Shown piece after piece: positions 18,492 to 26,524 of a DNA stretch of 45,179 nt. The first letter of the stretch is position 1; each line of letters opens with the position of its first letter. Source of the stretch: an uncultured Oscillospiraceae bacterium. Its GTDB lineage: Bacteria; Bacillota; Clostridia; Oscillospirales; Oscillospiraceae. The stretch covers positions 1 to 45,179 of the forward strand of contig CANRDC010000011.1 in assembly GCA_947629245.1 (NCBI GenBank). The letters run 5' to 3'. Position numbers and translations under genes: made by a program. Under the pieces are notes generated by a model. That model was not told the origin of the DNA. It saw only the letters and a program-made list of their open reading frames with translations, and ran no database searches.

Positions 18492-18522
18492 GGGGCCTTA
18501 AAGAAACTGGTCGAAGGTGGTC

Positions 18523-18841
18523 ATGATGCACAGCAACATATTCGGCGGGGCTCTGGCCTTCGCCGCGGGCTTCGGTCTGGCCGCGGCCGGCTACCTGTTC
18601 AGCCGCCATGTGCTGAGGACGAAGCCCGAGCGGTACGCCCTGTCCCAGACGCTGAAGCAGATCGTACAGGTCCTGTTTCTGGTGGCGCTGTTCGTCGTGG
18701 GCGGCTATACGCCCTGGGACAGGACGTGGCTCGTGGTCGGCGGCGTTGTCGGTATCACCCTGCCCATGATCTGGTTCACATACAGGCTCGTCAAATTCAA
18801 CGACTCTCTGCACACCGAAAGCGAAAAGGAGGACTCCGGCA

Positions 18842-18849
<8 letters not shown>
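18523..18849 (+). CDS. AtpI-like small membrane protein of the ATP synthase operon
   Basis: 108 residues from ATG 18523 (ATG 18526 is equally possible; GAAGGTGG lies just before). Three hydrophobic segments and a central basic TKPERYALSQTLKQ loop. Its position as first gene before atpB, its size and its hydrophobicity fit AtpI, which helps c-ring assembly or Mg2+ supply. Sequence motifs alone are weak. Its stop overlaps the atpB start by 8 bases. Confidence 0.7.
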
Positions 18850-19775
<926 letters not shown>

Positions 19776-19785
19776 TCGCGGCGCC

Positions 19786-20202
19786 ATGACGATACAGGTA
19801 TCGGTCCTCATCTGGACCGTGATATGCTTTTTGCTGCTGATGGCGATACTGCACTTTCTGCTGTTCAAGCCGGTGCTCCAGATGATGGACAGGCGCCGGG
19901 AGCATATCCGCAGCGCCAAGGCCAAAAAGGCGCAATACGCGCGCATGGCGGAGGAATACGCCGCCGTGCTGGAAAAAAGCCGCGCCGACCGTCTGGCCCA
20001 GCAGCAGAAGGAGCTGAAGTCCGAGTTGGAGCGGCTCCGGGCCGACAACCGGACCCTTCTGGCGACGGCGAACGAGACCAGGCTCCGCAAGGTGGACGAA
20101 TACAGCGTAAAGGCGGAGGCAGACTGCGCCCGGCTGCTCACGCTCTTGAGCGAGCAGGCGGACGAGCTTGCCGTGTCCTTCGCTCAGAGCCTGACAAAGT
20201 GA
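19786..20202 (+). CDS. atpF: F-type ATP synthase subunit b (short)
   Basis: 138 residues: one N-terminal membrane span (5-28, LIWTVICFLLLMAILHFLLF) with the typical FKPVLQMMDRR turn, then a charged helix (35-130) predicted to form the right-handed coiled-coil stalk. It is about 20 residues shorter than usual b (about 156-165). The next gene starts with another b-like anchor, so the peripheral stalk may be a b/b' heterodimer. Gap to the next start is 7 bases. Confidence 0.9.
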   Translation: MTIQVSVLIWTVICFLLLMAILHFLLFKPVLQMMDRRREHIRSAKAKKAQYARMAEEYAAVLEKSRADRLAQQQKELKSELERLRADNRTLLATANETRLRKVDEYSVKAEADCARLLTLLSEQADELAVSFAQSLTK

Positions 20203-20209
20203 CAAAGAC

Positions 20210-22447
20210 ATGAAGATACAATATGTTATCATCAACTTTCTGATCCTGGCGGGTCTGCTGGTCCTGGTCGGCCGGAAGATGGTCAAGCGCATCTTCTCCG
20301 ACCGCCGGGCCCGGATACTCCGGGAACTGGACGAGGTGGACGAAATCGAGCGCGCCGCCCCGCCGGAAAAGCCGGACCCGGACCGGGCCGCCATGGGCGA
20401 CGAGAGCCTCACCGCGGCCGGAGAGTCGGCCCGCGCCAACCTGGCCCAGGAGCAGGCGCTGGCGGAATCCGGTGTGGCCCAGATGGAGGCCTTCGGCGAG
20501 CGGGAATGCCGGGAGATACACCGGATCATGATCCAGAAGACGAAGCGCAAGTTCTTCCAGGTCATGAAGGAAAACGTCGCCAGGACCTTCTCCCAGGAGC
20601 CCTATCTCAGCCGGATGCGGGCGAAAGAGGCCGCCCAGGTGGACGAGATCCTGAGCCGGATCGAGCTGACGCCGGGCGACATGGCCTATCTGCGCTATCA
20701 CGGGGTGCTGTACGTCACCCTCACCTCCACGTACAAGCTGGACCCGGCCCTGGTGAAGAAGGTGGACGAGGCCACCACGGCGCTGCTGGACATGGTGGGC
20801 GGCAGGACCTCTCTGTGGGTGCTGGAGGACCCGTCGCTGATCGGCGGGCTGCGGCTTCGCATCGGCGACACGGTCTACGACTGCACGGTGGCGGAGGAAC
20901 TGTACCACTTTGAAAAGAGCATCAGCCGGGCCCCCGTGACCAGCGAGGAGATCGTAGGCGCGGTGCTGGAGGAATTCACCCAGAAGGCCCAGACCACCGA
21001 GCCCAAGCTGCACATCTATCAGCTGGGCAGGGTCCTGCAGATCTCCGACGGCATCTGCTGGATGGACGGCCTCATCGACATCATGTACGGCGAGGTCGTG
21101 GAGTTCGACTGCGGCGAGCGGGGCATGGTGCTGGACATCCAGCCCCAGCGGGTGGGCTGCGTGGTGTTCGGGGAGTATGAGACCATCGAGAGCGGCAGCA
21201 AGGTCCGCCGGGTGGGACGCATCGCCTCCGTGCCGGTGGGCGACGCCCTGCTGGGCCGGGTGGTGAACCCCATCGGCGACCCCATCGACGGGGAGGGCTA
21301 TATCTACGCCACGGAAAAGCGCCCCGTGGAATGCCGGGCCCCCGGCATCCTGGACAGGGCCGCCGTGACGAAGCCCCTGCACACCGGCCTGAAGGCCATC
21401 GACTCCCTGGTGCCCATCGGCCGGGGCCAGCGGGAGCTCATCATCGGCGACCGGCAGACCGGCAAGACCTCCATCGCCCTGGACGCCATCATCAACCAGA
21501 AGGGCAAGGACACGGTGTGCATCTATGTGGCCATCGGCCAGAAGGACACCACCATCGCCGAGATCCGCATGCGTCTGGCCCAGTACGGGGCCATGGAATA
21601 CACCACCATCGTGGCGGCCACCGCCTCCGACTCCGCCGCCATCCAGTACATGGCCCCCTTCGCGGGCACGGCCATGGCGGAATACTTCATGTACGCGGGC
21701 AGGGACGTGCTCATCATCTACGACGACCTGTCCAAGCACGCGGTGGCGTACCGGGAGCTGTCGCTGCTGCTGCACCGGCCCTCGGGCCGGGAGGCGTATC
21801 CCGGCGACATCTTCTATCTCCACTCCCGGCTGCTGGAGCGCTCCGCCCACCTGTCCGAGGAGCTGGGCGGCGGCTCCATCACCGCGCTTCCCATCATCGA
21901 GACCCAGGCCGGGGACATCTCGGCCTATATCCCCACCAACGTGATCTCCATCACGGACGGCCAGATCTTTCTGGAGAGCGAGCTGTTCCACGAGGGCCAG
22001 CGGCCCGCCATCAACGTGGGCCTGTCGGTGTCCCGGGTGGGCGGCGCGGCTCAGACGAAGCTGATGAAGCAGATGTCGGCGAGCCTGCGCACCAAGCTGG
22101 CCCAGTACCGGGAGCTGGCGGACTTCACCCAGCTGGGCACCGACGTGGACGAGGACACCCGGCGGACTCTGGACGCCGGAGCCCACCTGATGGAGGCGCT
22201 GAAGCAGGGCCGGTTCCATCCCCTGGAGGACTGGCAGCAGGCGCTGCTGCTGTTCGCCGTGTCGGAGGGCTGCGCCGACGGCGTGGCGCTGGAGGATATG
22301 GAGACGTTTGAAAAGGAGCTGTTCGCATTCTTCGAGAAGAACTGCGGCGCCCTCGCGGACGGGCTCAAGACCGGCAAAAAGCAGACCCCGGAGCAGCTCG
22401 CGGACATTCGGACCGCGTTGGGCGAGTACAAAAAGAGCATCGCGTGA
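20210..22447 (+). CDS. atpA: Fusion reading frame: b'-like anchor + delta C-terminal domain + ATP synthase alpha
   Basis: 745 residues in one frame (alpha alone is about 500). Residues 1-22 form a membrane anchor; 25-150 a charged helix like subunit b. Residues 160-237 match the delta/OSCP C-terminal domain (YVTLTSTYKLD; DPSLIGGLRLRIGDTVYDCTV). Residues 243-745 are a full alpha subunit: TSEEIVGAVLEEF start, Walker A GDRQTGKTS (413-421), QKDTTIAEI, SVSRVGGAAQTK. The delta six-helix N-terminal bundle is not recognisable. Codon 243 is GTG (20936) inside cccccGTGAcc. Removing one C from the C5 run at 20931-20935 would end a b'-delta gene at TGA 20937-20939, overlapping an alpha start as GTGA. So this is either a real fusion, a frameshift, or a one-base sequence error. 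No separate atpH exists in the operon. Confidence 0.85.
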   Translation: MKIQYVIINFLILAGLLVLVGRKMVKRIFSDRRARILRELDEVDEIERAAPPEKPDPDRAAMGDESLTAAGESARANLAQEQALAESGVAQMEAFGERECREIHRIMIQKTKRKFFQVMKENVARTFSQEPYLSRMRAKEAAQVDEILSRIELTPGDMAYLRYHGVLYVTLTSTYKLDPALVKKVDEATTALLDMVGGRTSLWVLEDPSLIGGLRLRIGDTVYDCTVAEELYHFEKSISRAPVTSEEIVGAVLEEFTQKAQTTEPKLHIYQLGRVLQISDGICWMDGLIDIMYGEVVEFDCGERGMVLDIQPQRVGCVVFGEYETIESGSKVRRVGRIASVPVGDALLGRVVNPIGDPIDGEGYIYATEKRPVECRAPGILDRAAVTKPLHTGLKAIDSLVPIGRGQRELIIGDRQTGKTSIALDAIINQKGKDTVCIYVAIGQKDTTIAEIRMRLAQYGAMEYTTIVAATASDSAAIQYMAPFAGTAMAEYFMYAGRDVLIIYDDLSKHAVAYRELSLLLHRPSGREAYPGDIFYLHSRLLERSAHLSEELGGGSITALPIIETQAGDISAYIPTNVISITDGQIFLESELFHEGQRPAINVGLSVSRVGGAAQTKLMKQMSASLRTKLAQYRELADFTQLGTDVDEDTRRTLDAGAHLMEALKQGRFHPLEDWQQALLLFAVSEGCADGVALEDMETFEKELFAFFEKNCGALADGLKTGKKQTPEQLADIRTALGEYKKSIA

Positions 22448-22465: not shown

Positions 22466-23302
22466 ATGCCGTCGATTCAAAGTCTGAAAAAACAGCTTCG
22501 GGGCGTTCTCTCGACCCAGAAGCTCACCAAGGCCATGAAGACCGTCTCCGCCGCGAAATTCTCCCGGCTGAACGGCGCCTACGGCAAGTACGCCGAGTAT
22601 GGCCGCCAGTGCAAGGCTGTATTCGACCGGTTCCAGGAGGGCTTTCTGGACGCTGTCCCCGCCGGGGACAGCGCCGCGCCGCCGCTTTATGTGGTGCTGA
22701 CCGCCAACAAGGGACTTTGCGGCAGCTTCAACACAGAGGTGCTGAAATTCGCCCAGGAGGAGCTCGACCGTCAGAAGGACTATGTGCTGCTGGCCTGCGG
22801 GAAAAAGGCCGTCCGCTTTTTCACGGGCAGGGGCGTCCCGCTGGCGGGCGAGTACGTTTTGCACGACGAGCCGTCCTATGAGCAGAGCTGCCAGGTGCTG
22901 GACGAGCTGCTGCGCCTGCGCATGACCGGGCGGGCCTGCGGCGTATACGTGATCTATCCGAAGTACGTCAACATGCTGACCCAGACGCCCGCGATGTGCG
23001 AGCTGTTCCCGCCCGCCGGGCAGGGGCGGGACGCCCCGGACGACGGCGCCATCCTCTGCGAGCCGGACCGGGACACGTTCATAGCGAGAAACGCCCGGGA
23101 GGTGTTTCGGGCGATATTTTACGAGCTGGTGCTGGAGGCGGCCCTGGGAGCCCAGGCGGCCACGCTGATGACCATGCGGGCGGCCTATGACGCCGCCACG
23201 GAATACAGCGCCCAGCTGGAGGGCCAGATCAGCCGCAAACGGCAGAGCGCCGTCACCGCGGACGTGATCGAGACCTCCTCCGGCGGCTGGGACGCGACCT
23301 GA
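22466..23302 (+). CDS. atpG: F-type ATP synthase subunit gamma
   Basis: 278 residues, ATG 22466 with GGATGGAG upstream. N-terminal helix PSIQSLKKQLRGVLSTQKLT followed by KAMKTVSAAKF, then LTANKGLCGSFN (about 79-90) and a C-terminal MTMRAAYDAATEYSAQ helix; both coiled-coil helices of the rotor shaft are present. It connects the c-ring to the catalytic head. An uncommon hydrophilic ending (SSGGWDAT) follows the last helix. It is otherwise ordinary. Confidence 0.95.
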   Translation: MPSIQSLKKQLRGVLSTQKLTKAMKTVSAAKFSRLNGAYGKYAEYGRQCKAVFDRFQEGFLDAVPAGDSAAPPLYVVLTANKGLCGSFNTEVLKFAQEELDRQKDYVLLACGKKAVRFFTGRGVPLAGEYVLHDEPSYEQSCQVLDELLRLRMTGRACGVYVIYPKYVNMLTQTPAMCELFPPAGQGRDAPDDGAILCEPDRDTFIARNAREVFRAIFYELVLEAALGAQAATLMTMRAAYDAATEYSAQLEGQISRKRQSAVTADVIETSSGGWDAT

Positions 23303-23355: not shown

Positions 23356-24747
<1,392 letters not shown>

Positions 24748-24748
24748 T

Positions 24749-25033
24749 ATGGGGTCGCTGACAGTGAAGATCGTGACCGCCCGGGGCTCTCAGGACCCGG
24801 TCCGGTGCAACAGCGTCCATCTGACGCTGTGCGACGACGCCAAAGGCCTGGGCGGCGGCAGCTACGGCGTCCGTCCCGGCCACGCCAAGGCGCTTTTTGC
24901 CCTGGCCGACGGCCCGGTACAGGCCCTTTCCGCCGGAAAGACCGTTCTGGCGGGCCGGTGCTGCGGGGGCTTCGCCGCCGTGGAGCAAAACACGGTGACC
25001 ATCGTCACGGAGCGGTTCGAGCCCGCAGTATAA
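24749..25033 (+). CDS. atpC: F-type ATP synthase subunit epsilon lacking the C-terminal helical domain
   Basis: 94 residues from ATG 24749. Only the N-terminal beta-sandwich is present (LTVKIVTARG ... GVRPGHAKALFALADG ... NTVTIVTERFE); usual epsilon is about 130-140 residues with two C-terminal helices that can inhibit ATP hydrolysis. Here the protein ends (EPAV) directly after the sandwich, and no frameshifted remainder is evident in the 33 bases before the hydrogenase. It should still join gamma to the c-ring but cannot give the classical helix-based inhibition. The loop HLTLCDDAKGLGGGSYGVRPGH departs from the usual EGxxGxxPGH pattern. Confidence 0.85.
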   Translation: MGSLTVKIVTARGSQDPVRCNSVHLTLCDDAKGLGGGSYGVRPGHAKALFALADGPVQALSAGKTVLAGRCCGGFAAVEQNTVTIVTERFEPAV

Positions 25034-25066: not shown

Positions 25067-26524
25067 ATGGTGACCAACGACGCCGCCATCGCGCGGATCA
25101 AACACGAGGTGGTGCAGGAGGTGGCAAGGCTCGCTTGGGAGGGCAGGCTGGACCAGGAGCGGGACCAGATCCCCTACCGGATCATCCCCGGCCCCCAGGC
25201 CCATTTCCGCTGCTGCATCTATAAAGAACGGGAGATCATCCGCCAGCGGGTGCGTCTGGCCGAGGGGAAAAGCCCCGCCGGACAGCGCTCGGACAATATG
25301 GTCCAGGTCATCAACGCGGCCTGCGAGGAGTGTCCCATCGCGTCGTATATCGTGACGGACAACTGCCGCAAGTGCGTGGGCAAGGCCTGCCAGAATTCCT
25401 GTCAGTTCGGCGCCATCTCCATGGGCCCCAACCGGTCCTACATAGACCCCAACAAGTGCCGGGAGTGCGGCAAGTGCGCCCAGGCCTGCCCCTACAACGC
25501 CATCGCCCACCTGGAGCGGCCCTGCAAAAAGGTCTGCCCCGTGGACGCCATCACCTACGATGAGTACGGCATCTGCGTCATCGACGAGAACAAGTGCATC
25601 CGCTGCGGCGCCTGCATCCACAGCTGCCCCTTCGGCGCCATCGGCACCAAGACGTCGGTGGTGGACATCATCAACGCCATCAAGTCGGGCAAGCGGGTGG
25701 TGGCCATGCTGGCCCCCGCCACGGAGGGCCAGTTCGGCCCGGACATCACCATGTCCAGTTGGCGGACCGCGCTGAAAAAGACCGGCTTTGCCGACATGGT
25801 GGAGGTGGGTCTGGGGGGCGACCTGACCGCCGCCGCCGAGGCCAGGGAATGGGCCGAGGCTTACAAGCAGGGAAAGAAGATGACCACCTCCTGCTGCCCC
25901 GCCTTCGTGAACATGATCGAGATGCACTATCCCGCCCTGAAGGAGAACATGTCCACCACCGTGAGCCCCATGTGCGGCGTGAGCCGGTATCTGAAGCGGC
26001 AGGACCCGGACACCGTCACCGTGTTCGTGGGCCCCTGCATCGCGAAAAAGAGCGAGATCAACCTCCACGACATCGAGGGCAACGCGGACTACGTCCTGAC
26101 CTACGGGGAGATCCGCTCGCTGATGTACGGCAAGGGCGTCGAGCTGGAGCCGGAGGAGAATAGCGCCCAGCAGAGCAGCGTATACGGCAAGCGCTTCGGC
26201 AACGGCGGCGGCGTGGCCGCGGCGGTGGTCCGGTGCTTCGAGGAGATGGGCGAGGACATCCATCCCGAGGTGATGAAGTGCAACGGCGCGGCGGAGTGCA
26301 AGAAGGCTTTGCTGCTGCTGAAGGCCGGGAGGCTCCCGGCGGATTTCATCGAGGGCATGGTCTGCGAGGGCGGCTGCGTGGGCGGCCCCAGCAAGAACAT
26401 GACCGTGGCCGAAGCAAAGAAGTTCCGGGACGACATGATCGGCAAGGCCGACGGCCGGGGCGTGCTGGAGAACCTGAAGGCCATGGGCGCGGACACGGTG
26501 CCCATGCACCGGACGCGGACATGA
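25067..26524 (+). CDS. [FeFe] hydrogenase, group-B-like monomer
   Basis: 485 residues, ATG 25067 behind AGGAGGA. Cysteine-rich N-terminal half: CEECP (86-90) and CRKCVGKACQNSC (100-112), then ferredoxin-type clusters CRECGKCAQACP (131-142), CKKVCP (153-158) and CIRCGACIHSCP (177-188). H-cluster motifs: L1 TSCCPAF (274-280), L2 GPCIAKK (322-328), L3 MVCEGGCVGGP (431-441). L1 with Phe instead of Trp, L2 with GPC rather than MPC, and the short L3 point to group B (family knowledge) rather than the common group A. It should evolve or oxidise H2 with ferredoxin in the cytosol. It lies 33 bases after epsilon with no terminator between, so it may be read from the atp promoter. No HydE/F/G maturases are in the window. 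Confidence 0.9.
   Translation: MVTNDAAIARIKHEVVQEVARLAWEGRLDQERDQIPYRIIPGPQAHFRCCIYKEREIIRQRVRLAEGKSPAGQRSDNMVQVINAACEECPIASYIVTDNCRKCVGKACQNSCQFGAISMGPNRSYIDPNKCRECGKCAQACPYNAIAHLERPCKKVCPVDAITYDEYGICVIDENKCIRCGACIHSCPFGAIGTKTSVVDIINAIKSGKRVVAMLAPATEGQFGPDITMSSWRTALKKTGFADMVEVGLGGDLTAAAEAREWAEAYKQGKKMTTSCCPAFVNMIEMHYPALKENMSTTVSPMCGVSRYLKRQDPDTVTVFVGPCIAKKSEINLHDIEGNADYVLTYGEIRSLMYGKGVELEPEENSAQQSSVYGKRFGNGGGVAAAVVRCFEEMGEDIHPEVMKCNGAAECKKALLLLKAGRLPADFIEGMVCEGGCVGGPSKNMTVAEAKKFRDDMIGKADGRGVLENLKAMGADTVPMHRTRT

Follow-up and report, generated by a model that had tools for sequence, protein, structure and literature searches.

A Conserved Fusion of a b-Type Strand, the Delta C-Terminal Domain and Alpha in F-Type ATP Synthase Operons of Uncultured Bacteria: a Candidate Multi-Stalk Enzyme

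Introduction

In the standard view, an F-type ATP synthase has one peripheral stalk and one a subunit. In an engineered Bacillus PS3 FoF1 the N-terminal domain of the delta subunit (OSCP) was removed and the delta C-terminal domain (CTD) was fused to alpha (Ueno et al., Nat Commun 2025, PMC12229609). Its authors conclude that it is the delta N-terminal domain which keeps an F-type enzyme from having more than one stalk. As many as three stalks and three a subunits were present on the engineered enzyme, each stalk seen being accompanied by an a subunit, with an H+/ATP ratio of 5.8 versus 3.0. On grids, particles with 0, 1, 2 and 3 stalks amounted to 15, 51, 26 and 8%, stalks having probably detached, and the authors ask for a multi-stalk enzyme that keeps its stalks firmly attached. 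The paper also suggests multi-stalk enzymes in nature, leaving verification to others, and already names natural delta(CTD)-alpha fusions (Acidaminococcus fermentans, UniProt G4Q3K6, A0A1I2C5T3). In the mycobacterial b-delta subunit a duplicated domain attaches two of the three alphas, alpha being a separate chain and the enzyme having one stalk (PMC8617483; PDB 7njk and others). Here we describe a gene in which a b-type strand, the delta CTD and alpha are joined in one frame (b'-delta(CTD)-alpha, or triple fusion). It lies on the 45,179-nucleotide contig CANRDC010000011.1 (assembly GCA_947629245.1) of an uncultured Oscillospiraceae bacterium, the whole of which is called the window below. No description of a b-delta(CTD)-alpha chain was found among the listings searched, which covered open-licence PMC text and those preprints that PMC holds.

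Results and Discussion

Domain Organization of the Fusion Protein

The fusion is one chain composed of a membrane-anchored b-type strand, the delta CTD and alpha, encoded by a 745-codon frame that an earlier, sequence-only reading of the window had also reported. The gene and its parts are:

20210..22447, plus strand, b'-delta(CTD)-alpha fusion gene, 745 codons (open frame, Pfam, relatives, AF2, Foldseek)
20210..20701, plus strand, b'-like part, residues 1–164 (AF2, hydropathy, profile positions 2–151 matching b-size frames)
20702..20929, plus strand, delta/OSCP CTD, residues 165–240
20930..20995, plus strand, junction: linker (residues 241–248) and alpha N-terminal helix (249–262), holding GTG 20936 and GTG 20963
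21014..22444, plus strand, alpha head part, residues 269–745 (TIGR00962)

The three Pfam alpha domains (N, nucleotide-binding and C) were located at residues 273–739, and the F-type alpha model TIGR00962 gave 707.6 bits against a cut-off of 484. PF00213 (OSCP) scored above its cut-off at residues 162–237, covering only model positions 98–171 of 172, which correspond to the CTD. The delta-like module proposed in the sequence-only reading was thus recovered as far as this domain goes; it is not a whole delta, since the N-terminal domain is absent. The b part of the window protein was weak by itself (PF00430, 19.4 bits; curated cut-off 28), and PF00430 was matched at E ≤ 0.01 in 18 of the 19 aligned fusion members, window included (best 3e-10).

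The AlphaFold (AF2) model of the full chain showed a membrane helix followed by a long helix, the delta CTD fold and the alpha head (mean predicted local distance difference test, pLDDT, 75, with parts of alpha below 50). Residues 1–247 were also folded separately, because the VIA-align list for the full model was filled by alpha chains, and reached a mean pLDDT of 90. The predicted b'-like part consists of an N-terminal membrane helix, a helix to residue 48, a low-confidence break at about 50–64, a long helix at 65–127 and short helices to 164, and the predicted delta CTD fitted OSCP with a root-mean-square deviation (rmsd) of 1.8 over 75 residues. Together with the Pfam and TIGR00962 matches, the models bear out the earlier assignment of anchor, b-like, delta and alpha parts to a single chain.

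A b'-delta(CTD) profile was built on 47 sequences, and a search with it through 375 genomes of the order (E ≤ 1e-6) gave 52 rows. Fifteen were full length, the window included; all of them stood in the fusion frame, which a contig end truncates in one case. The others were classed by frame size: 28 rows within positions 2–151 belonged to open frames of 162–243 codons, the size of a b gene, and nine rows starting at position 137 or later and ending by 234 belonged to frames of 181–190 codons, the size of a delta gene. Because the rows split in this way, the module is taken as b plus delta CTD. This search turned up no free b'-delta(CTD) gene, and relatives with separate b'-delta and alpha genes, which the sequence-only reading had named as a refutation, were seen neither here nor among the 80 loci described below.

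Occurrence of the Fused Frame and Constancy of the Junction

The b/OSCP/alpha order, which had been proposed as a search in related genomes, was indeed found there. Of the 60 nearest genomes, 8 had a full-length, stop-free fusion frame; a sample of 394 genomes from the order contained 16, and one further frame there is cut by a contig end. Across the two samples identities ran from 55 to 87%, and the carriers span five families. Among the matches listed, from the best score down, for the class (341 genomes) and phylum (299 genomes) samples, no full-length unbroken fusion besides the window's own was seen. A scan of named-species genomes gave 326 pattern matches, reduced by tblastn to 257 relatives, the best 80 of which were taken as loci (named loci). 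Each of the 80 comes from a metagenome assembly whose title names Clostridia, Bacillota or a member of these, and many titles name gut sources (goat, sheep, deer, water buffalo and rabbit, as we read 'Lapin'). Of 27 pattern matches in viral contigs none was a relative. Going by these assemblies, many uncultured gut bacteria carry a head subunit that is continuous with a membrane-anchored stalk.

The junction lay within one open frame in all 80 named loci, 76 of them complete (736–790 codons from stop to stop) and four cut by contig ends. Its length was exactly 46 residues in 77 of the 80 (72 of the 75 measured first, and all five variant-motif loci added later). In 235 junction pairs of 5–30% divergence the differences at the three codon positions numbered 1432, 1316 and 4910; this concentration at third positions means that the junction is translated in the fusion frame. 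By these comparisons the fusion is a translated, length-constrained join.

Same-genus genomes (G001–G034) included species with the triple fusion, species with a delta(CTD)-alpha operon and species in which no F-type alpha was seen, many of the drafts being incomplete. Such patchy occurrence within one genus perhaps reflects transfer.

Delta and Alpha Genes in Carrier Genomes

When 23 carrier genomes were searched with the OSCP model, the fusion was matched in all 23, always over model positions of about 95–172 only; as judged by this model, the delta N-terminal domain is gone from the fusion. Twenty of the 23 had no other delta above the family cut-off and one F-type alpha, and 19 had no other OSCP match at E ≤ 1. 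The window genome (G000, 87% complete) likewise gave no further match at E ≤ 1, in accordance with the sequence-only reading, in which no other delta gene had been seen in the operon. G320 had one weak further OSCP match, below the cut-off; G411 and G127 encode a full-size delta elsewhere as well (179-codon frame), and in G417 an OSCP match, read across stops, precedes a second gene, of the delta(CTD)-alpha kind. A second F-type alpha was found in these last three genomes, the other 20 carriers showing one (in the order sample the two best candidates per genome were scored). The two-alpha genomes combine the triple fusion with a delta(CTD)-alpha (G417: L238, L071) or with the full-size delta elsewhere (G411: C2, C50; G127: C6, C10). 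Most carriers examined, draft genomes as they are, show no other F-type alpha, and in these the fusion gene should supply all three alphas of a head. A canonical single-stalk F1Fo is recognized by having a full delta gene and an alpha gene apart from each other, a description that the fusion does not fit.

Relationships of the Alpha Fusions

Alpha genes fell into four kinds by their N-terminal extension: none, delta CTD (about 72–106 amino acids), full delta (164–184 amino acids) and b'-delta(CTD) (at least 229 amino acids); two odd loci, L251 and L270, were labelled by hand. A tree of 157 rows was built after dropping duplicates, short cores and loci whose frame did not show an exact P-loop match (L073, L182, L193, L200 and L258, among others). 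It leaves out most of the named loci, 19 having been chosen and 15 having passed the filters. All 37 b'-delta(CTD)-alpha rows were set off from the rest by a single branch (support 100), and the 50 delta(CTD)-alpha rows required nine gains or losses. In a more careful tree of 71 of these rows, picked by hand, the 15 b'-delta(CTD)-alpha rows grouped with support 100/100, and the 20 delta(CTD)-alpha rows required six changes, at least five of them forced by supported branches. On both trees the alpha parts of the triple fusions are one well-supported group. The triple fusion may have grown out of a delta(CTD)-alpha ancestor: with nested unfused rows in and the long-branch row L028 dropped, the approximately unbiased (AU) test did not reject a joining of triple-fusion and delta(CTD)-alpha rows (p 0.53), in place of a version that rejected it (p 5e-48) with the nested unfused rows left out of the constrained group. 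Delta-alpha fusions stand apart from one another at several places in the tree, which suggests a benefit.

Nine relatives (L086, L092, L186, L187, L252, L253, L254, L255 and L257) carry a full-size delta-alpha fusion of about 670–700 amino acids; in the seven scanned, OSCP is matched along most of its length. Such a fusion would place three delta N-terminal domains on one head. L251 (G134:C17:36300-40500) has two tandem delta CTDs fused to alpha (two OSCP stretches, Pfam), and L061 and L027 (G051:C2) have a free-standing 72-amino acid gene resembling the delta CTD directly before a separate alpha gene.

The Operon and Other Genes of the Window Genome

An F-type ATP synthase operon lies on the plus strand of the window, in the order atpI-like, a, c, b, fusion, gamma, beta and short epsilon. 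The genes around the fusion are:

18517..18849, plus strand, atpI-like gene, 110 amino acids (PF03899, weak match, 19.6 bits, under cut-off)
18842..19516, plus strand, subunit a, 224 amino acids (PF00119, E 4e-44)
19548..19775, plus strand, subunit c, 75 amino acids, motifs GQG and MEALTIY (PF00137)
19786..20202, plus strand, separate subunit b, 138 amino acids, one N-terminal membrane helix (PF00430, 34.6 bits, above cut-off; hydropathy)
22466..23302, plus strand, subunit gamma, 278 amino acids (PF00231)
23359..24747, plus strand, subunit beta, 462 amino acids (PF00006, PF02874)
24749..25033, plus strand, short subunit epsilon, 94 amino acids, beta-sandwich only (PF02823)

This order was entire in 64 of the 80 named loci, and parts of it were found in the other 16; the script tagged beta through the fusion profile, to which beta is related. 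An atpI-like relative was the first gene in most named loci, and a separate b gene (126–165 amino acids) preceded the fusion in all 80. The c subunit motif, which we take to be of the H+ type, was kept in nearly all relatives. The epsilon gene leaves no room for a C-terminal helical domain, and epsilon is also short in the majority of relatives (median 96 amino acids, range 87–148, n = 70). One subunit a gene was matched in the whole window genome.

Directly 3' of epsilon lies a monomeric [FeFe] hydrogenase (25067-26524; TIGR04105, 597.6 bits). Elsewhere, on G000:C46, two alpha-related frames of 462 and 589 codons resemble V-type B and A subunits, so that the genome seems to have a second, V-type-like rotary ATPase. 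RnfC was above its cut-off at G000:C22:6750-8048, and a weak ion gradient might come from it. RnfC is common to carriers and non-carriers, and Rnf was discarded as an explanation of fusion carriage, the two groups showing no difference.

Proposed Enzyme and Alternatives

We consider it probable that the operon encodes a natural F-type enzyme with three peripheral stalks tied to its head, by analogy with the engineered PS3 enzyme. As each head needs three alphas, it would contain the b'-delta(CTD)-alpha chain in three copies, with one separate b as partner for each, and three stalks would surround the rotor in covalent connection with the head. With the delta N-terminal domain off the three-fold axis, nothing there would limit the enzyme to one stalk, and the covalent b' would stop stalks from falling off. 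Of the possibilities named in the sequence-only reading, a new stator design is the one implied here. The objection of that reading that three anchors per head conflict with normal architecture loses its necessity, because the domain described as limiting the stalks (PMC12229609) is gone here; three anchors are probably the point of the design and not a puzzle. With less certainty, each stalk may bring its own a subunit (up to three), which would raise the number of protons per turn and permit ATP synthesis when the proton motive force is low, in line with the engineered delta(CTD)-alpha chain. To this fuller version, in which up to three a subunits raise H+/ATP two- to three-fold, gut fermenters make ATP at a proton motive force insufficient for ordinary enzymes and an F-type enzyme has arrived at a V-type-like three-stalk stator, we give somewhat less than an even chance.

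A narrower form of the three-stalk proposal, with which its odds overlap, has one a subunit on a single stalk, the other two bracing the head at an ordinary proton ratio. V-type enzymes combine several stalks with a single a subunit, and each operon here has one a gene; we nevertheless regard this form as rather unlikely, since the stalks of the engineered enzyme were always seen with an a subunit (PMC12229609).

It is improbable that the enzyme is an ordinary one-stalk machine whose chain is cut, or whose alpha also arises from an internal start, giving one long and two short alphas per head. Canonical stoichiometry would be kept in this way, and two in-frame GTGs are available in the window. 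The first, GTG 20936, where the sequence-only reading had placed possible initiation, has no Shine-Dalgarno match in the window and a start codon at its position in 2 of 75 relatives. The second, GTG 20963, nine codons further on, has GGAG upstream, and a start at its position recurs in 8 of 75, four of them with such a motif. In 25 of the 75 there is no start codon at all in junction residues 10–40, and junction starts with a four-base Shine-Dalgarno match occur in 10 of 75 at scattered positions, against 56 of 80 named loci for the fusion start (two not evaluated). With no conserved start, internal initiation in the junction is not supported. The constant junction length suggests geometry and not a cutting site, and without the delta N-terminal domain a one-stalk head would miss its usual axial contact.

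We think it similarly improbable that the complex is a proton pump driven by ATP hydrolysis, the other rotary ATPase of the genome doing the rest. The epsilon CTD often acts as a brake on hydrolysis, and the window epsilon is too short for it; the V-type A- and B-like genes would supply the second enzyme. Against this, more a subunits would make a weak pump, and 20 of 23 carriers have no other F-type alpha.

The chance of an assembly or frameshift artefact, or of a broken gene, is negligible: the genome is a draft with a CCCCC run at 20931-20935, where a base-call slip had been suspected, yet the fused frame recurs in the sampled genomes of five families (8/60, 16/394) and in all 80 named loci, many relatives being fused despite other residues at that site (the run itself was not scored), and the junction has a coding signature.

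If the three-stalk proposal is true, the fusion family challenges the rule of one stalk and one a subunit, and estimates of the proton cost per ATP in gut anaerobes would change. The family is a natural candidate with stalk and head in one chain, in many gut species and with the whole operon at hand, through which the multi-stalk question is directly testable.

Comparison with Known Systems

The mycobacterial b-delta differs from the window fusion, in which the delta CTD follows directly after the helices (residue 165), no OSCP N-terminal match is found and alpha is fused. The N-type ATPase b subunit (TIGR03321) is a b chain without a delta gene, and its model matched fusion residues 7–238 weakly. 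Membership in the N-type (alternate) ATPases was rejected (TIGR03321, 19.7 vs 224.7 bits; TIGR03324 alpha, 606 vs 750.5). Matches to the V-ATPase E-type stalk subunit and to flagellar FliH had about 10% sequence identity. V-type stalks resemble the proposed stator in having a long helix and a globular end domain on each alpha/B-type subunit; to our knowledge, V-type subunit E is not fused to subunit B.

Natural delta(CTD)-alpha proteins, with 50 rows in the larger tree, resemble the fusion in having the delta CTD on alpha and no delta N-terminal domain; most of those in this survey are about 570–610 amino acids long and, unlike the fusion, have no b part. The closest likeness is to the engineered PS3 deltaDeltaN-alpha chain (PDB 9jc1), which was the best PDB sequence match to the window protein and was equal to it in length across the junction (103 residues on 103). 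In Foldseek its three copies ranked as the top three, above plain alphas (TM-score 0.48, rmsd 11.6); it was not among the 50 entries listed by VIA-align, all taken up by plain alpha chains. Both chains lack the delta N-terminal domain and carry the delta CTD before alpha with an equal junction length, and the epsilon CTD, removed in the engineered enzyme, is likewise missing from the window epsilon. The engineered b subunits are separate, whereas the window fusion includes one b-type strand in the chain. The conserved b'-delta(CTD)-alpha is an order of known domains for which the open-licence PMC listings showed no earlier description, with a strong engineered precedent for the three-stalk reading.
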